DNA from: Nitrospira sp.
GTDB taxonomy: Bacteria > Nitrospirota > Nitrospiria > Nitrospirales > Nitrospiraceae
NCBI GenBank assembly: GCA_024998685.1
Contig: JACOEH010000017.1
Span: forward strand, 27,495-91,494
Direction: 5' to 3'
DNA: 64,000 bases
Of this stretch, positions 7,145 through 62,099 are shown piece by piece. Each line of letters begins with the position of its first letter. The first letter of the stretch is position 1. The notes under the pieces were generated by a model. The model made no database searches. It was given only the letters and a program-made list of their open reading frames with translations, and was not told the DNA's origin. A program made the position numbers and the translations under genes.

Positions 7145-8452
7145 TTGGGTAACTTGATTGCTGAAACGCTCTCGTCAAGTTGGATGGCTTTGGCCATCCT
7201 TGCAGGTCTGATGGTCTATTTTCAGGTGTCTATCAGCGATCCTGCTGCAAAAAAGCGCGCGGTGTTCAAGACATTCATCGGGATTGTTTCTTGCTTCTTT
7301 TTGTTCATGGCAATCGTCAATTACAAAACGAATTTTTATGGCGAAAGCCGTTTGCTGCCGGTGTCTCTTGTGACGATTACGGTGACGACCTTCGTCATGG
7401 CGTTGTACTTTACCAATCTCAGTGCAATGTTGAAGGTCGGCGGGTTTATGTTTTTCGTGGCCGCATTCCTTTCGGGCTATGGGAACTGGCTTCCGCAGGT
7501 CGAAGGTGGGTTTCCGCCCGTAGAAGAGAAGAAAACGTGGGATTCGATGTCTCCGCAACAGCTGGCTGATGAAGGTGAGAAGATTATCTTTGGAGGTGTC
7601 GGGAAAAACAAGGAACAGGGCGCAATCGGCAAGGGGCAATGTCCCCTCTGCCACGCATTCCATGCGGGCATGCTCGGGGAGCGGGCACCTAACCTATTGG
7701 GACTTCCCACTCGGGGGAAGGAGCGGTTGGATGATCCCAAATACTCCAAAGGTAACCCATCCAAGCGTGAATACGAAGTCAAGGAAGCTTTCGCTGGCTC
7801 TGGAACTGCAGAAAACTCACAAGAGTACATTGCGGAATCGCATGCTTGTCCGAGCTGTTATGTGGTTTCAGGGTATGGCGTGAAGGGGACGAATGACAAG
7901 CAAAGTCCGATGCCTGCTATTCATAAACCGCCGATTTCACTCAGTCTTCAAGAGCTTGCAGCTGTAGACACATGGATGTATGTGCGTGAGGGAATAGAGC
8001 CTCCCCCCTTTGAAGAGATCGTAAAGTCATACGAAAAGTTCATCCCGGAAGCCGATCGTCCTAAGATGGCCGAGGATAAGCCCGCAGGAGCTACTTCGTT
8101 GATGGCTGATGGGTCGGAACCGGTCGATCAGATTTTTGCTAAAGCACAGTGCGTGTCATGCCATACGATTCCGGGAATCCCTGGAGCCATGGGTACCATT
8201 GGTCCCAAACTTGAAGAGGGCACAACTGCTGCCCAACGCATAAAGGACCCTACGTATAAGGGCACGGCAAAATCACCTGCCGAATACATTATGGAATCTA
8301 TTGTGGATCCCAGCGCCTATGTTGTAAAGCCTTTCCCGGATAATACGATGCCGAAAGTCTTTGGGCAAAAGTTGAGCGCGGGTGCGTTGAAAAAGATTGT
8401 CGATTATTTGTCGCAGGTGAAGGCCGGAGCGCCGCCACCAAAGATTTCATAG
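7145..8452 (+). CDS. Membrane-anchored c-type cytochrome
   Basis: N-terminal TM segments; heme-binding motifs CPLCH and CVSCH; downstream of bd-like gene. Confidence 0.85.
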   Translation: MGNLIAETLSSSWMALAILAGLMVYFQVSISDPAAKKRAVFKTFIGIVSCFFLFMAIVNYKTNFYGESRLLPVSLVTITVTTFVMALYFTNLSAMLKVGGFMFFVAAFLSGYGNWLPQVEGGFPPVEEKKTWDSMSPQQLADEGEKIIFGGVGKNKEQGAIGKGQCPLCHAFHAGMLGERAPNLLGLPTRGKERLDDPKYSKGNPSKREYEVKEAFAGSGTAENSQEYIAESHACPSCYVVSGYGVKGTNDKQSPMPAIHKPPISLSLQELAAVDTWMYVREGIEPPPFEEIVKSYEKFIPEADRPKMAEDKPAGATSLMADGSEPVDQIFAKAQCVSCHTIPGIPGAMGTIGPKLEEGTTAAQRIKDPTYKGTAKSPAEYIMESIVDPSAYVVKPFPDNTMPKVFGQKLSAGALKKIVDYLSQVKAGAPPPKIS

Positions 8453-8494
8453 CCTCCAGCTGCCTGTTACGCAGAGAGTAAAGGGAGTTTTCCA

Positions 8495-9532
8495 ATGAAA
8501 GCGTTAATGTCTCTCGGTGCACTGATTGGAGTAGCGGGACTTCTCCTGCTTGCAGGGATGATCTTCAATGTCATCCCTTCGAGCACTGTACGTTTAGTCG
8601 AAGGCTATATGCCGATGCAGATGCTTTTTGAGCTTACCTGTTTCGTCGCCGGCTTTGCAGGACTGAGCTATATGATGAGCGCTATGGGCATGCCGCTTTC
8701 TCGTTTTTGGCAGGGAATCGGCTTCTGGGCATTCATACTGCTTTATCTGAAATATCGCGTCTATCCACCGATCCCCTTCAGCGTCCGCGCCATGTATGGC
8801 ACCGTGTCTCTCGTCGCGGTCTTCATGTGGGTTTCGGCTAGTGAGGAAGATTGGAAAAAATTCAAACAGCCCATTATGAACGTACTGGACGCACAGACCG
8901 GGATGAATAAGCTTTTGCGTTACATGTATCTGGTACTTCTTCCAATTCTTATCGGTGGATTCTCTTACAACGCAATGATGCCGAAGTCCGAAGAACCCAT
9001 CGAGTTAAGAACGGTTCACCCGGCACCACCGGCCAGCACAAAGGTCCATGGTAAGACCTATACATTACAGACTTCGCAAAATCCATATCGAGTCAATCCA
9101 GAAGGAAAATACGATCAAGATTTCACGAACGCGAATATCGTCGAGCAAGGTATGGGTCGGTTGATGAAGCCCAATGCCAATCCGTGGGATGACAAAAATC
9201 AAGGCTACCTGAAGTATGTACGTGAAGGCGGAGAGATATTCTTCCAGAATTGTCATTTCTGTCATGGCGATAACCTGAACGGCCGCGGACTACATGCCTT
9301 CGCTTTCAACCCGATACCTGCAAACTTCACCGACCCAGGTACTATTGCCCAGCTGCAAGAAACCTTTATATTTTGGCGCGTTTCCAAGGGTGGTATTGGG
9401 TTGCCCAACGAAGGATTTCCATGGGCCTCAGTTATGCCGCCCTGGGAACAACATTTAACGGTTGATGAAATTTGGAAAGTAATTTTGTTCGAATATTGGC
9501 ACACCGGCTACTATCCACGGACCTGGGATTAG
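8495..9532 (+). CDS. Membrane-anchored monoheme c-type cytochrome
   Basis: N-terminal TM segments; CHFCHG heme motif; cytochrome c family C-terminal domain. Confidence 0.85.
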   Translation: MKALMSLGALIGVAGLLLLAGMIFNVIPSSTVRLVEGYMPMQMLFELTCFVAGFAGLSYMMSAMGMPLSRFWQGIGFWAFILLYLKYRVYPPIPFSVRAMYGTVSLVAVFMWVSASEEDWKKFKQPIMNVLDAQTGMNKLLRYMYLVLLPILIGGFSYNAMMPKSEEPIELRTVHPAPPASTKVHGKTYTLQTSQNPYRVNPEGKYDQDFTNANIVEQGMGRLMKPNANPWDDKNQGYLKYVREGGEIFFQNCHFCHGDNLNGRGLHAFAFNPIPANFTDPGTIAQLQETFIFWRVSKGGIGLPNEGFPWASVMPPWEQHLTVDEIWKVILFEYWHTGYYPRTWD

Positions 9533-9574: not shown

Positions 9575-11365
9575 ATGAAGATGAGGCTAAACATGATGGA
9601 CAGCATAACTCAGAAGGCCGGAATCATAGCGGCTGCTGCCTTCGGAGTCGTTCTGGTGTCTAGTGCAGGCTATTCGATTGTTTCAGCGCAAGGGCTCCCT
9701 GAAGGTTTTAAGAAGGGGGATCTCGCTCCTGAACCGTCGGCAGAAATGATTGAAGCGGGAAAGCGAGTCTATTTCACCAAGTGTGTGTGGTGTCATGGAG
9801 TGGATGGAGCCGGAGACGGACCTGGAGCTGATCGACTCTGGCCTCGCCCGCGGAATTTCAATCAAGGGACTTTTAAAATTCGCCACACTGCGAGCGGCGA
9901 ACTTCCATTGTTTGACGCTAAAAAACCTGTCCCTGGTCAAAATGATCTTTTTGAGACGGTTACTCATGGGCTTCCAGGCTCTGCCATGCCACCTTGGGAA
10001 GGTATTCTGACTGAAGAACAGCGCCTTCAGGTGTTGTCCTTTGTCACCACTCAACTGGTCAAGGATCGGAAATTTACGGATAAACAGACTGAAACTCAAA
10101 CGGTATTACAGTTGGCTGAACTCAAGGCCAAACCGGCAACCGATGAAAGCAAAAAGCGCGGTTCCGAACTCGTCGTCGAGAAGAAGTGTGTCGAATGTCA
10201 CGGCATGGAAGGGCGCGGTGATGGGAATGCTTTTAATTTGAAAGACGATTGGGGATTTTCGATCCAGCCGGCCGATTGGCACAAGTGCTGGAACTTCCGT
10301 GGTAGCCGTCAGGATCCATATAATGTGGGCAACATCTTCAGAACCTTTTCGACAGGGGTCAACGGTACTCCGATGCCCTCGTTTGCGGATAACACGACGG
10401 TGGATGAACGATGGGATATCGCGAACTTTGTGAATTCTCTCTGTGAAAGGGATGCGCTGGGCAATCCGCTTCCGATCGACCCACTGACTGACAAGCCGAA
10501 GATCAATTTCGTGATTCCCTCCGATATGGTCGAAGGAGAAATCCCGACCGACATCGGACATGAGGCCTGGCAAAAAGCTCCGAAGCGTTACGTGGCTATG
10601 GGTGGGCAGATTACCCACAAGCCGAGAAACTTTGTGAATCGAATTGACGACATCTGGGTGCGGTCGCTCTACAACGATAAATCAATCGTCTATCTTCTCG
10701 AGTGGGATGACCGAACGAAGAGTGTGGCTGAAGGCAAACTTCCATGGGCCCCGACTCAAGTCAATATTGATGTCAAAGAGCAGGATCCAAAGACTGGTGA
10801 GGAAGGGTCGATCGCAGCGCACCAAAATAACTACACGGTGTACAACGATGCGATCGCTATTGAAACTGCTGTGAAATGGAAGGAGCTGCCGGCTCCAATC
10901 AAGCCTCGCTATCTGTTCGGGACGAACGACCAATTCCCGGTTGATATCGTCAAGTGGGAGGCCGACGGATCTCTCAGGGCGTTCAAAGGTACAGGCTGGG
11001 ATAAGGATTTCGAAGAACGCGATAACTATGAAGAGAGTATGAAGCTCTTAAAGGGCGAATGGAAGGATGGTCGCTGGTATGTGATGATCCAACGTCCGCT
11101 GGGGAATAAGAAGGACCAAGATTATGACGAAGATACCTTCTTCGAAGTAGGACAATACATTCCGACCGTGTTCTTCGCATGGGATGGTCATAATGGCGAT
11201 GCTGGACGAAAGATGGCGGTCTCCGCATTCTTTTATACATTCATGAATCCACCGATTCCCCGTGAGACATATATCTATCCGGCGGTCATTGCCGTCGGAG
11301 TTGTGTTGCTGGAAGGATGGGTTTTGACTCGTCGTGCCAATAAGAAAAAAGGTAAGACGCTGTAG
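9575..11365 (+). CDS. Diheme cytochrome c fused to NxrC/ethylbenzene-dehydrogenase-gamma-like heme-binding domain, C-terminal TM anchor
   Basis: CVWCHG and CVECHG motifs, followed by a domain with AWQKAPKRYVAMGGQITHKPRN..IDDIWVRSLYNDKSIVYLLEWDDRTKS; C-terminal TM then KKKGK. Confidence 0.8.
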   Translation: MKMRLNMMDSITQKAGIIAAAAFGVVLVSSAGYSIVSAQGLPEGFKKGDLAPEPSAEMIEAGKRVYFTKCVWCHGVDGAGDGPGADRLWPRPRNFNQGTFKIRHTASGELPLFDAKKPVPGQNDLFETVTHGLPGSAMPPWEGILTEEQRLQVLSFVTTQLVKDRKFTDKQTETQTVLQLAELKAKPATDESKKRGSELVVEKKCVECHGMEGRGDGNAFNLKDDWGFSIQPADWHKCWNFRGSRQDPYNVGNIFRTFSTGVNGTPMPSFADNTTVDERWDIANFVNSLCERDALGNPLPIDPLTDKPKINFVIPSDMVEGEIPTDIGHEAWQKAPKRYVAMGGQITHKPRNFVNRIDDIWVRSLYNDKSIVYLLEWDDRTKSVAEGKLPWAPTQVNIDVKEQDPKTGEEGSIAAHQNNYTVYNDAIAIETAVKWKELPAPIKPRYLFGTNDQFPVDIVKWEADGSLRAFKGTGWDKDFEERDNYEESMKLLKGEWKDGRWYVMIQRPLGNKKDQDYDEDTFFEVGQYIPTVFFAWDGHNGDAGRKMAVSAFFYTFMNPPIPRETYIYPAVIAVGVVLLEGWVLTRRANKKKGKTL

Positions 11366-55631: not shown

Positions 55632-57689
55632 GTGAGTGACTCAGCGATTGTAACGTTTGCCCTCATAGCGGCCGTAGCCGGCATCGCATATGGGCTTTAT
55701 TTAGCAATGTGGGTGTTCAGGCTCGACGCCGGCAATGCGAAGATGCAGGAAATTGCGAAGGCCATTCAAGAAGGTGCCGGCGCCTATATGAATCGACAGT
55801 ACAAGACCGTCGGCTATGTGGCTGCGGGCTTGTTCGTCGTTCTGGCAGCTGGTGGAGCCGTATCGGATAAATTTGGTCTGATCACTGCCGTCGGTTTTTT
55901 GGTCGGCGCGGGAGCCTCGGCCATCGCCGGCTATGTCGGCATGATTATCGCGGTTCGCGCCAATGTGCGGACAGCCCAAGCCGCTCATAACGGTATGAAT
56001 TCAGCTCTGACCGTTGCCTTCCGTGGTGGAGCGGTGACCGGTCTGCTGTTGATCGGACTCGGCCTGCTCGCCATCACCGGTTTCTATACCATTGCCCAGT
56101 CGATCGCCGGACAAGAGAAGGCCATTCATGCGTTGTTAAGTCTCGGGTTCGGCGGCAGTTTGATCTCGGTATTTGCACGGGTCGGTGGCGGCATTTACAC
56201 GAAGGCGGCCGACGTTGGTGCCGACCTGGTCGGCAAAGTCGAAGCGGGAATTCCAGAGGACGATCCGCGGAATCCAGCGGTGATTGCAGATAACGTGGGT
56301 GACAATGTGGGAGATTGTGCTGGAATGGCGGCAGACCTCTTTGAGACCTATGCGGTGACGACCGTGGCGGCGATGGTCCTGGCCTTTACGATGTTCAAGG
56401 GAGCCACAGCCCCGATTCTGTATCCGTTAGCGTTGGGTGGAGTGACGATCTTTGCCACGATCATCGGTATCCTGTTCGTAAAGGTGAGCCCTGGCGGGGA
56501 GATCATGACGGCGCTCTACAAAGGTCTGTTCGTGGCCGGCGGCATCGCGGCCATCGCGTTCTTCCCGATTACCTCGAAGATCATGGACGGCGTGGGTGGA
56601 GTAAGCGGCACGAGCTACTACTTCGCGGCGTTGATTGGGTTGGCCGTCACGTTGGCGCTTGTGTTCATCACCGACTACTACACATCGAAGAACTATGAGC
56701 CGGTGAAATACATCGCCAAGGCAAGCGAAACCGGTCACGCGACAAACATTATCGCAGGCTTGGCGGTTGGTATGCAGTCGACGGCGGCTCCAGTCATGGT
56801 GATTGCAGCGGCAATTCTCGGCAGTTACTGGATTTGTGGCGGGGCGGAATCCGGTGGGCTCTATGGCGTTGCCGTCGCAGCGGTGTCGATGCTCTCGATG
56901 GCCGGGATCGTCGTGGCAATCGATGCTTTCGGTCCGATCACCGACAATGCGGGCGGCATTGCCGAGATGTCGCATTTGGGCAAGGAAGTTCGAGACATCA
57001 CCGACCCATTGGATGCCGTCGGCAATACGACCAAGGCAGTCACGAAAGGTTATGCGATCGGCTCCGCCGGGTTGGCGGCCGTGGTGCTCTTTGCTGAGTA
57101 CTCGCGAGAGGTCGCAGCGCACAATCCGGCGCTGTCTGCATTCGATCTTTCCAATCCGAAAGTTTTGGTGGGGCTGTTCCTGGGCGGCATGTTGCCGTTC
57201 ATCTTCAGCTCACTGTGTATGCGGGCCGTCGGTGAAGCGGGGGGGTTGATCGTGGAAGAAGTGCGTCGGCAATTCAGAACGATCAAGGGCATCATGGAAG
57301 GCACGGGCAAGCCCGAGTACGGTACCTGCGTCGACATCGTGACTCAAGCGGCAATTCAAAAGATGATGATTCCCGGTTTGATTCCGGTGGTCTCGCCGGT
57401 GGTCGTCGGTGTGGTGCTTGGACCACAGGCGCTCGGTGGTATGCTGGTGGGCAGCATCGTGACCGGTTTGTTCGTCGCCATTTCAATGACGAGCGGCGGC
57501 GGTGCATGGGACAACGCCAAGAAGTTCATCGAAGAGCAGGGCTTGAAGGGGAGCGAGACACACAAGGCGGCGGTCACCGGCGATACAGTTGGTGATCCTT
57601 GCAAGGATACGGCGGGACCAGCTGTGAACCCGATGATCAAGGTCATCAATATCGTCGCACTGCTCATCGTGTCGTTGATCGTGCGCTAA
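55632..57689 (+). CDS. hppA: Membrane-bound H+(Na+)-translocating pyrophosphatase
   Basis: [54 protein letters not shown] and [21 protein letters not shown]. Confidence 0.97.
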
Positions 57690-57720: not shown

Positions 57721-57754
57721 AAGCACCGTGCCGCGATTGAGACACGGTGCTTTT
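57721..57754 (+). terminator. Rho-independent terminator
   Basis: AAGCACCGTG ccgcgattgaga CACGGTGCTTTT. Confidence 0.8.
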
Positions 57755-57771: not shown

Positions 57772-57801
57772 TTGACGGGTTTCAGCACCCTAGAGTATGG
57801 T
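57772..57801 (+). promoter_or_regulatory. Weak putative sigma-70 promoter upstream of pup
   Basis: TTGACG - 18 nt - TATGGT. Confidence 0.3.
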
Positions 57802-57866
57802 GAGCTTGTCATCGGTAGATACCGGTGAATCGCGAGGGTTTCCCCTGGTCCACGGGAGGTGCTCGG

Positions 57867-58064
57867 ATGGAAAAGCAGGAACGGAAACAAGAGCCGCGAC
57901 GAGAACCGCAGGGTAAGGAAGAGGTCAAAGCGAATCCCAAAGTTGTCGAAGCCGGCAAGAAGATCAAGGAAGATATCGATAAGCTGGTCGATGAAATCGA
58001 TGATGTCCTTGAAAAAAATGCTGAAGAGTTTGTGAAGAACTACGTTCAGAAAGGAGGAGAATAA
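57867..58064 (+). CDS. pup: Prokaryotic ubiquitin-like protein Pup
   Basis: 65 aa MEKQERKQEPRREPQGKEEVKANPKVVEAGKKIKEDIDKLVDEIDDVLEKNAEEFVKNYVQKGGE; disordered charged N-terminus, coiled-coil DEIDDVLEKNAEEF, C-terminal YVQKGGE as in actinobacterial Pup; RBS GGGAGGTG. Confidence 0.9.
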   Translation: MEKQERKQEPRREPQGKEEVKANPKVVEAGKKIKEDIDKLVDEIDDVLEKNAEEFVKNYVQKGGE

Positions 58065-58217
58065 CACCTCCAACTTCCGCATTCCTACTCGATTTCTCCT
58101 ACGACGGCCCAAGTCCGTTGGTTTGACAAAGAAGAAGCGACTTATTACAGTCTTTCTCGTTCCTATGAAACCCATGGTTTGAATTGTGGTAAGGCCCAGG
58201 CTCTTAAGGAGGCGGGG

Positions 58218-59918
58218 ATGAAGTCTAAGCTCTGGGTCATTCGCCAGGTCGATCCAGTCCAACGAGGCCTCTTATCACAGGCCTTATCCATCTCATCGGC
58301 CACTGCCTCGTTGTTGCTCAACCGAGGCGTTATGGACGTAAACCAGGCGACAGCCTGGATGTCTCCTCTTCGAACTCATGATCCTTTCTTGATTCCCGAT
58401 ATGGAATCGGCTGTTGATCGTCTGTTTCAAGCCATGCAACGGCGCGAGGTCGTCTGTTTTTATGGTGATTACGACGTTGACGGCATGTCCGCTACGAGTA
58501 TTTATCTTTCCTTTTTCCGTGGACTCGGTGCCGAAGTTCGAGCCTATGTTCCGCATCGCCTGCGTGAAGGATATGGACTCAATGAGAACGCTGTTCGGAC
58601 CTTGGCGAAGGAGGGCGTCTCTTTATTGGTGACGTCGGATTGCGGGACCACGTCGCATCGTGAGATCAGCTTTGCCAATCAATTGGGAATTGACGTGGTG
58701 GTCACCGATCACCATCAAAGCGACAAGGAGATGCCGCCCGCTTTGGCGGTGATGAATCCGCATCGGCCGGAAGCTCGGTATCCCTTTCACGGGCTTTGTT
58801 CCGGTGGTCTGGCGTACAAGGTTGCCCAGGCCTATGACAGAAAGTATGGATCCGGTTCGGTGCCTCTGGAGTCGCTGTTGGATTTGGTGGCGCTTGCCAC
58901 AATTGCGGATGTGGTTCCGCTACAAGATGAAAATCGACTATTTGTTAGAGAGGGTCTCGTTCAAATTTCACGAGGCGCGCGCTGCGGCATACGAGCCTTG
59001 AAGCATGTCGCCGGTATTAGTCGTGAGTGTACGGCAGAAACCATCGCATTTAAACTCGGTCCCCGACTCAATGCCGCAGGTCGATTAGATGAGGCCATCA
59101 AAGGGGTCAGGCTTCTGACGACGGAGTCTGAACGGGAAGCCAAAGAGTTGGCTGAAGATTTGGAGCGGTTGAATCGAGCCCGCCGTGAGCTCGAGGCCGA
59201 GATCCTACAGGAGGCGCTGGCCCAGGCGGAAGCACGGGAGTGGCCGGGCGGTATCGTGCTGTATGCGCGAGGATGGCATCTAGGGGTCGTCGGCATCGTG
59301 GCCGCCCGTATCATGGAACGGTTCCATCGTCCGACGGTCGTCATCGCTGTGAGTGAACAGGGTATCGGAAAAGGGTCTGCCCGAACCGTGCCGGGGTTCG
59401 ACTTATATCAGGCCTTAACTGCCTGTCGAGACCTGCTCATGGCGTTCGGCGGCCATCCCAGCGCGGCCGGAATGACGATTCGTGAGGAGCGGTTGCCGGA
59501 ATTTTCGGAGCGATTTTCCGCCATCGGCGAAACATGGATCCAAGCCACTCACAGTGTTCCTCAGCTGTACGTGGATTCAGAAGTTCGACTGAACGAAGTC
59601 ACGTTGCAGCTGATTCGGGAGATCGGGACGTTGCATCCATTTGGGGCCGGTAATCCGGAGCCGACGTTCGCCGTCAAGGGTCTGGATGTTCTCAACGCTC
59701 GCATGGTCGGAGAGAAGCATTTGAAGATGACGGTCCGCCAGGGGGGGTCGGTACCGTTTGATGGCATTGGGTTCGGGATGAAATCGTTGGAGGATCATGG
59801 GCTGTCTCTCAAGACGCCGATCGACGTCGCGTTTACGCCGGAACTGAATCACTGGAACGGCTATGATCGGATTCAACTACGCATTCGAGATATAAGGGCG
59901 GCAGGCCGTGAGTCATAG
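58218..59918 (+). CDS. recJ: Single-stranded-DNA-specific exonuclease RecJ
   Basis: VCFYGDYDVDGMSATSIY, VTDHHQSDKEMPPALAVMNPHR, LGPRLNAAGRLDEA, FGGHPSAAGMTI. Confidence 0.95.
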   Translation: MKSKLWVIRQVDPVQRGLLSQALSISSATASLLLNRGVMDVNQATAWMSPLRTHDPFLIPDMESAVDRLFQAMQRREVVCFYGDYDVDGMSATSIYLSFFRGLGAEVRAYVPHRLREGYGLNENAVRTLAKEGVSLLVTSDCGTTSHREISFANQLGIDVVVTDHHQSDKEMPPALAVMNPHRPEARYPFHGLCSGGLAYKVAQAYDRKYGSGSVPLESLLDLVALATIADVVPLQDENRLFVREGLVQISRGARCGIRALKHVAGISRECTAETIAFKLGPRLNAAGRLDEAIKGVRLLTTESEREAKELAEDLERLNRARRELEAEILQEALAQAEAREWPGGIVLYARGWHLGVVGIVAARIMERFHRPTVVIAVSEQGIGKGSARTVPGFDLYQALTACRDLLMAFGGHPSAAGMTIREERLPEFSERFSAIGETWIQATHSVPQLYVDSEVRLNEVTLQLIREIGTLHPFGAGNPEPTFAVKGLDVLNARMVGEKHLKMTVRQGGSVPFDGIGFGMKSLEDHGLSLKTPIDVAFTPELNHWNGYDRIQLRIRDIRAAGRES

Positions 59919-59921
59919 AAG

Positions 59922-62099
59922 ATGTACGAAACCGTGACGAGCATCGACCAATTGTTGGATCGTTTGCAAGACTATCAGCCGGACGCTGATCTCGACGTGG
60001 TACGGAAGGCGTATGAGTTTTCCGCGAGGGCGCATGAGGGACAAGTGCGTCGATCCGGAGAGCCCTATGTGAAGCACCCTGTGGCGGTGGCTGGAGTGTT
60101 GACGTCTTTGAAAACCGACGTCACCGCAGTTGTGGCCGGGTTGTTACACGATACGCTGGAAGATACGGTGGCGACGGCCGATGAGCTTCAGCGGGAATTC
60201 GGGAATGAGGTCGTTCATCTCGTCGATGGGGTGACAAAGATCGGCAAGATCACCTTTAGGAGTTCAGAAGAAAAACAGGCTGAAAATTTCCGCAAGATGG
60301 TGCTCTCGATGGCGGACGACATTCGCGTCGTGATCATCAAACTGGCCGATCGGCTCCACAACATGCGAACGCTTGAGCATCTCAGTGAGAAAAGACGGCA
60401 AGAAATTGCACAAGAGACGATGGAGATCTATGCGCCTTTGGCGAATCGCATCGGGATCGGCTGGGTGAAGAACGAACTGGAGGATTTGTGTCTGAAGCAT
60501 CTTAAACCGGATGCCTATGAAACCTTGCGGGTGTGCGTGGCGAAGCGTGATGAAGATCGTCGGCAGTATATCCAGGAGGTGCAAGCGCTCGTTGAGGTGG
60601 CTCTGAAAGAGAATGGGCTTATCGGAGCAGTGTACGGAAGACCGAAACACCTCTACGGTATCTATCAAAAAATGAAGAAGCAATCGATTTCCTTCGATGA
60701 GGTGTACGACCTCACCGCCTTGCGGATCATCACCGATTCGAAGATGAACTGCTACGCGCTGTTGGGTGTCATCCATTCGTTGTGGCGACCGCTGCCGGGC
60801 CGTTTCAAGGATTACATCGCGATCCCCAAATCGAACCTCTATCAATCCCTCCATACAACCGTGGTCGGGCCGAAGGGCGAGCATGTAGAGTTTCAGATCC
60901 GCACGGAAGAAATGCATCGCGTGGCCGAGTATGGGATCGCCGCGCATTGGAAGTATAAAGAACAAGGGAAGGTGCATGATAAAGACAGTAAAGCCTTCGG
61001 ATGGCTGAGACAGTTCATCGAATGGCAAAAGGATCTGCCTGACAATCGTCAATTCATGGATTCCGTGAAACTCGAGTTGTTCCACGACGTGGTCTATGTT
61101 TTTACGCCCAAGGGAACCGTCAAAGAACTGCCTAAAGGAGCCACGCCGATAGACTTTGCCTATGCGATTCACACGGAAATCGGCGACCACTGTGTCGGGG
61201 CGAAGGTCAACGGAAAGATCGTTCCGCTCAAGCATGAAGTGACGAGCGGCGACACCATCGAAATCCTGACATCTCCGAACCAGACTCCACATAAGGATTG
61301 GCTCAAGTTCGTCCGCACGTCCCGGGCGAAGACAAAGATTAAACATTGGATCAAGGCGGAGGAACAGAAACGAAGCCTGGAAATCGGGTGGCGTTTGCTC
61401 GAAACAGAGGTTCGTCGCCATGGCATGGCTCCCTCGCAGGTTCTCAAGTCGGATGCGCTGCTCGAAATGGCCAAGCAAGAAGGCTATGCAACGATCGACG
61501 AACTTGCCGCGGCCGTGGGATTTGGTCACCTCGCAACGGTTCAACTCATTGGAAGGTTGATGGCTCCAATTTCGGCCGGCGCTCGGACTCAGTCCGAACC
61601 CGCCGGTGCCCCTAAAGCCGTCAGCACGAGAGGAGGGGAGCCGGGCGTCCAAGTGAAGGGGGGGCGCGATCTATTGATGCAACTGTCGCGATGCTGTAAC
61701 CCAGTCCCCGGCGACAAGATCTTGGGGTACATCACGCGTGGAAGGGGCCTCACGATCCATTCACTCGATTGTCCCAACCTGGGAGCATTGGATTATGATC
61801 GAGAACGTTTGGTGGAAGTTGAGTGGGATACGGCTATGCCGAGTCAACACGCGGTTAAAATAGCCGTCATCGCGGAGGATAAGCCGGGAATGTTGGCGAA
61901 TGTCTCCTCGGCGATCGCCGAATGCAAAGCGAATATCAGCCGCGCTGAAATCATCACGCGGGAAGATCGGAAAGCGGAGCTGGATTTCGTTATCGAAATC
62001 GCCGACACGGCTCACCTGAATAACGTGTTGAAAACGATTGAACGGGTCGGCGGGGTCATTACGGCACGGCGCGTTCGGTCCTGGCAAGAACGATCATAA
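59922..62099 (+). CDS. Bifunctional (p)ppGpp synthetase/hydrolase (RelA/SpoT)
   Basis: HD domain (HPVAVAGVLTSLKTD..VVAGLLHDTLEDT), synthetase (YDLTALRIITDS, YIAIPKSNLYQSLHTTVVGP), TGS and ACT domains. Confidence 0.97.
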   Translation: MYETVTSIDQLLDRLQDYQPDADLDVVRKAYEFSARAHEGQVRRSGEPYVKHPVAVAGVLTSLKTDVTAVVAGLLHDTLEDTVATADELQREFGNEVVHLVDGVTKIGKITFRSSEEKQAENFRKMVLSMADDIRVVIIKLADRLHNMRTLEHLSEKRRQEIAQETMEIYAPLANRIGIGWVKNELEDLCLKHLKPDAYETLRVCVAKRDEDRRQYIQEVQALVEVALKENGLIGAVYGRPKHLYGIYQKMKKQSISFDEVYDLTALRIITDSKMNCYALLGVIHSLWRPLPGRFKDYIAIPKSNLYQSLHTTVVGPKGEHVEFQIRTEEMHRVAEYGIAAHWKYKEQGKVHDKDSKAFGWLRQFIEWQKDLPDNRQFMDSVKLELFHDVVYVFTPKGTVKELPKGATPIDFAYAIHTEIGDHCVGAKVNGKIVPLKHEVTSGDTIEILTSPNQTPHKDWLKFVRTSRAKTKIKHWIKAEEQKRSLEIGWRLLETEVRRHGMAPSQVLKSDALLEMAKQEGYATIDELAAAVGFGHLATVQLIGRLMAPISAGARTQSEPAGAPKAVSTRGGEPGVQVKGGRDLLMQLSRCCNPVPGDKILGYITRGRGLTIHSLDCPNLGALDYDRERLVEVEWDTAMPSQHAVKIAVIAEDKPGMLANVSSAIAECKANISRAEIITREDRKAELDFVIEIADTAHLNNVLKTIERVGGVITARRVRSWQERS

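Follow-up and report, generated by a model that had tools for sequence, protein, structure and literature searches.

A Nitrospira pup gene beside recJ, its probable place in a complete Pup-proteasome system, and a UBact system in the same genome

A short open reading frame lying between a membrane pyrophosphatase gene and recJ in a genome of Nitrospira raises the question of whether it is a genuine gene for the prokaryotic ubiquitin-like protein Pup and, if so, whether it stands as an orphan or supplies the tag for a degradation system encoded elsewhere. The window analyzed here is a 64 kb (64,000-nucleotide) stretch of this genome. A first-pass annotation, made from its sequence, had described the gene as an orphan encoding a canonical-looking Pup with a terminal Glu, and had considered that it might belong to a second or separately located tagging system. 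The reading frame (57867-58064, forward strand) has 65 codons followed by TAA and encodes the protein MEKQERKQ...DKLVDEIDDVLEKNAEEFVKNYVQKGGE. It matches the Pfam profile PF05639 with 77.1 bits (E=2e-21; cut-off 27) and the NCBIfam profile TIGR03687 with 60.9 bits (E=8.4e-17; cut-off 41.45), while Pup chains from the PDB match it with E-values down to 7.7e-11. The UBact profiles PF20513 and NF033388 give no match with hits allowed up to E 10, and on these comparisons the protein is a member of the Pup family and not a UBact.

The length of 65 residues falls within the 60-70 expected of a Pup, and the C-terminal GGE is one of the two ends, GGE or GGQ, that define such proteins. Across 27 distinct sequences from the genus, the variable sites of pup are distributed as 8/5/63 over codon positions 1/2/3, i.e., 63 of 76 lie at the third position, and the median dN/dS is 0.013; together, these values point to strong constraint at the protein level. 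Hence, the canonical appearance and terminal Glu noted at the outset are both upheld, and the profile matches, the tail and the constraint confirm a genuine pup gene; the family is known, the arrangement unusual. All copies read from the genus end in GGE and three members of the order end in GGQ (loci L031, L116 and L119, all from family f3), the other Pups read from the order likewise ending in GGE. A GGE tail makes deamidation by Dop unnecessary, although Dop is still useful as a depupylase (PMC3511204). The presence of both tails within one order suggests that the need for deamidation has switched there.

The immediate surroundings of pup, all on the forward strand, suggest a separately expressed gene. 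The upstream neighbor hppA (55632-57689), which encodes the membrane pyrophosphatase and lies outside the tagging system, is followed by a probable terminator (57721-57754) recognized by folding, with 10-bp arms AAGCACCGTG/CACGGTGCTT, a 12-nt loop and a T-run (-19.5 kcal/mol, z -4.2), which probably separates pup from the transcription of hppA. Between this hairpin and pup, a consensus scan and conserved alignment columns pick out a candidate sigma-70-type promoter, TTGACG-18-TATGGT (57772-57801), in a stretch conserved in the genus. This is followed by the ribosome-binding region GGGAGGTgctcgg (57851-57866), with GGGAGGT 5' of pup, in which GGAGGTGCTCG is nearly invariant across the genus in the upstream alignment. 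The combination of the hppA terminator and the conserved promoter-like site indicates that pup probably has its own promoter. Downstream lies recJ (58179-59918), also outside the tagging system, with a likely start at the ATG at 58218 favored by an SD-like site, and next after it a gene for a relA/spoT-type (p)ppGpp enzyme (59922-62099). The neighbors are thus those originally reported and, as had also been reported, a tblastn search of the 64 kb window returned no mpa, dop, prcA, prcB or pafA; an Rfam search of the window likewise returned nothing.

The missing machinery is encoded elsewhere in the assembly, which comprises 4.83 Mb in 105 contigs and is 98.8% complete, and the description of pup as an orphan therefore does not hold. 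The whole genome contains one match to PF05639, i.e., the pup of the window, four proteins of the Pup-ligase/Dop family PF03136 and five proteins of the proteasome fold, one of them probably HslV. Contig C10 carries an mpa-dop-prcB-prcA-pafA operon (henceforth type-1), devoid of pup, whose products all score above the NCBIfam equivalog cut-offs (Mpa 739, Dop 539 against a cut-off of 492, PrcB 298, PrcA 305 and PafA 561 against 551 bits). Here dop ends at L070:9722 and the likely ATG of prcB is at 9746, i.e., dop runs almost into prcB; a profile search of the C10 operon for a hidden second pup found none, and no Pup remnant was seen in the 120-bp gap of G040. The usual operon arrangement places pup directly upstream of prcB (PMC3511204), instead of which it lies here between hppA and recJ; that position is the usual layout and not a functional requirement. 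A second complete operon on contig C18, arc-dop-UBact-prcB-prcA-pafA (henceforth type-2), has the classical order. Its UBact has 64 residues, ends in YRQRTGE and scores 75.9 bits with NF033388 and 74.6 bits with PF20513, and its ATPase, Dop, PrcB and PrcA all fall below the cut-offs for the Pup system. The searches that had been proposed beyond the window, for prcAB, mpa/arc, pafA, dop and a UBact gene, have thus all returned genes, on C10 and C18.

Inspection of the encoded proteins shows the catalytic pattern T1-D17-K33 in every PrcB read of both types, and a GHY[LF] C-terminal end in every type-1 Mpa, with GHYL in the Mpa1 of this genome. PafA and Dop are therefore accompanied by intact PrcB catalytic residues and an intact Mpa docking motif. 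As a separate observation, the type-2 ATPases have no G-x-Y-L end despite adjoining proteasome genes (L071:11705-13468 on the reverse strand, L161-L167, L177, L178 and L180). Absence of this motif has been tied to absence of the proteasome (PMC3511204), and docking of the type-2 ATPase to the proteasome may differ here.

The order hppA-pup-recJ is found in every locus of the genus long enough to tell, and the gene order in named Nitrospira MAGs agrees with it; the conservation across Nitrospira that the first-pass annotation had wished to see is thus present both in the gene and in its setting, and none of the three outcomes it had named as refuting (absence of a Pup HMM hit, of PafA or of conservation) was obtained. 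Families f2, f3 and f4 of the order, which was taken as Nitrospirales by named matches, have pup adjoining recJ or relA, sometimes without hppA, and type-1 operons devoid of pup. In contrast, outside this order, both elsewhere in the class and in other classes of the phylum, pup lies between dop and prcB, and in five outgroup genomes (loci L149-L153) recJ and relA are neighbors with no pup beside them. The order forms a clade with SH-aLRT support of 99 in PafA1 and 98 in Dop1, adjacent to family f9, in which pup is still inside the operon; the order is recovered in a concatenated tree as well, at a node support of only 71, and the shortness of Pup precludes a dependable tree of the tag itself. 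The linkage of pup to recJ or relA throughout Nitrospirales, together with the in-operon pup of the outgroups, makes one relocation the simplest account: pup would have left the operon once, on the stem of Nitrospirales, with the enzymes inherited vertically. The distance involved can be read from the closed single-contig genome G024, with which the ends of contigs C24 and C10 of the window's assembly are collinear: its pup maps to 3103411 and its type-1 Dop match to 3158890, with about 54 kb between the two sites. The idea that the arrival of UBact drove pup out of the operon was rejected, as UBact and an in-operon pup occur side by side in seven outgroup genomes. In one member of the order, the recJ beside pup has an in-frame TAG (L142; G021:C17:89238-90956).

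With two sets of enzymes in one genome, the displaced Pup might be served by the type-2 PafA and Dop, either through one ligase pair acting on two tags or through cross-reacting systems. Both tags end in Gly-Glu, homologues of PafA and Dop are encoded in both operons, and the displacement has removed the usual physical linkage of pup to the type-1 operon. However, order members with just two PF03136 proteins, i.e., a single PafA/Dop pair, keep Pup and have no UBact. Further, beyond Nitrospirales, in genomes of the class's other orders and in loci of other classes, the type-1 operon has the order mpa-dop-pup-prcB-prcA-pafA and so holds pup, while UBact occupies its own, corresponding slot between dop and prcB in the type-2 operon. 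A tree of 105 Dop/PafA proteins resolves dop1, pafA1, dop2 and pafA2 as one clade each (SH-aLRT 99-100), and the best structure match of PafA1 is the PafA 4B0T with 385 bits, whereas the matches of PafA2 are much weaker (Dop 253 bits, PafA 204 bits). These observations combine into a well-supported prediction that Pup pairs with the enzymes of C10, i.e., with PafA1 rather than PafA2, and service by the type-2 pair appears quite improbable.

It is also conceivable that the gene beside recJ did not move, but came in by horizontal transfer and took the place of the pup in the operon. Several Rokubacteria/Methylomirabilota MAGs with a free-standing pup, and with Dop and PafA on other contigs, are possible donors; yet the in-operon Pups of sister orders are no less close (mostly 65-86% over the aligned part) than the Rokubacteria/NC10 copies (56-63%), and the vertical inheritance of the enzymes speaks against a transferred Pup, making such a replacement unlikely. 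That the gene is an orphan or decaying Pup devoid of a conjugation system, or a chance reading frame, could have been argued from the lack of any machinery within the 64 kb window, but the whole-genome search, which recovered the full machinery, refutes the orphan version, and both chance and decay are hard to reconcile with the low dN/dS and with a gene that is near-universal in Nitrospirales, such that this explanation is scarcely credible. We therefore consider it very probable that the gene of the window is the functional pup of a complete Pup-proteasome system, which moved once and whose enzymes are encoded elsewhere, with a UBact system present in parallel.

A survey of 246 Nitrospirota genomes found both Pup and UBact in 79, Pup alone in 36, UBact alone in seven and neither in 124. 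Pup is present in every sampled family of the order, as well as in other classes of the phylum, and most UBact-bearing members of the order have extra proteasome-family genes. By this count, two tag-proteasome systems appear to be present together in around one third of the sampled Nitrospirota and in most Nitrospira. Mis-binning was rejected as their source on the strength of single-contig genomes such as G024, which has pup together with both operons. The initial suspicion of a second or separately located system stands insofar as pup lies apart from its machinery and two systems are present; it fails insofar as Pup is not the odd extra, the UBact operon being the less widespread of the two. 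Pup was not detected in five order members (G009, G016, G020, G042 and G224); in G009, G042 and G224, recJ is likewise missing or is cut at a contig end, which points to assembly gaps as the likely reason there. Among the UBact loci, G035:C35:122595-125308 has a pair of UBact genes separated by about 2.5 kb, with extra proteasome-family matches, possibly a tandem duplication or an assembly artefact, and L166 (G056) has about 1 kb extra between UBact and the type-2 dop at 8212-9284, where other genomes have little.

Compared with the actinobacterial Pup-proteasome system, e.g., that of Mycobacterium, the C-terminal half of Pup is nearly identical; Dop, PafA, Mpa, PrcA and PrcB score above the equivalog cut-offs, the PrcB catalytic residues are shared and Mpa ends in G-x-Y-L/F. 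The differences are the position of pup, far away beside recJ and not between dop and prcB, the tail, which is GGE in Nitrospira and GGQ in mycobacteria, and the exact end of Mpa, which is GHYL in Nitrospira. Leptospirillum ferrooxidans (PMC3511204, Fig. 2), also of the Nitrospirota, likewise combines two complete sets in a single genome, with one tag lacking GGE that would fit UBact; unlike the displaced Pup of Nitrospira, both of its loci keep the tag in the operon (PMC3511204). The UBact system proper (PF20513, NF033388) is represented here by the separate C18 operon, with its tag ending in RTGE, and not by the reading frame of the window.

Free-standing pup genes also occur in other lineages. 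In Rokubacteria, Methylomirabilota and NC10 (L211, L213-L217 and L219), pup lies more than 6 kb from the enzymes, or is free of them out to the contig end, and full-length Dop and PafA are encoded elsewhere in four of the genomes searched. The MAGs of L211, L214, L215 and L219 resemble Nitrospirales in that over 6 kb separate pup from dop/prcBA/pafA and the genome encodes Dop and PafA at another place, but differ in the neighbors of pup, and they are not traced to the same event. As judged from these loci, a free-standing pup is not unique to Nitrospirales. Further Pup-like genes lie on contigs labelled Azambacteria, Sungbacteria and Patescibacteria (L207, L222 and L254), for which contamination is possible; the genome of L222 has several divergent PF03136 proteins and that of L254 has none, and in L254 a recJ homologue lies beside pup.

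In the arrangement that we propose, pup would be transcribed beside recJ/relA, probably from its own promoter. Dop1 would act only as a depupylase in the GGE-tailed species and additionally as a deamidase in the few GGQ-tailed ones, and Mpa1, which ends in GHYL, would feed pupylated proteins to the PrcAB1 proteasome. Alongside this, the C18 operon would equip UBact with a ligase, depupylase, ATPase and proteasome of its own. We lean slightly towards the view that these constitute two complete and separate pathways (Pup-PafA1/Dop1/Mpa1/PrcAB1 and UBact-PafA2/Dop2/ARC2/PrcAB2), which would run at once in most Nitrospira and family members, with pup under independent transcriptional control owing to its departure from the operon.

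Pupylation in Nitrospirota was reported in 2008 and 2012 (PMC2588565, PMC3511204), and Leptospirillum ferrooxidans was described in 2012 as having the system in two divergent copies (PMC3511204); a search of open-access papers found none on the displaced pup locus or on UBact in Nitrospira. An apparent orphan thus becomes the probable gene for the tag of a complete degradation system, and an operon whose gene order was described in a 2012 review as rigidly conserved (PMC3511204) would, in a single bacterial order, have been left with no gene for its tag. According to a 2026 review, all Actinomycetales and Nitrospirales species except Rhodococcus erythropolis have one alpha and one beta subunit (PMC13022661), which for Nitrospirales is contradicted by the genomes studied here; if true, the operation of two pathways would conflict with the view that all Nitrospirales make just one form of 20S proteasome.

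Nitrospira play key roles as nitrite oxidisers and as comammox organisms, and some of them are in cultivation. Calculated from the tail sequences on the assumption of the same chemistry, the tryptic remnants expected on lysines are GGE (+243.0855 Da) for Pup and TGE (+287.1117 Da) for UBact, and as these differ, both systems could be sought together in existing proteomes.
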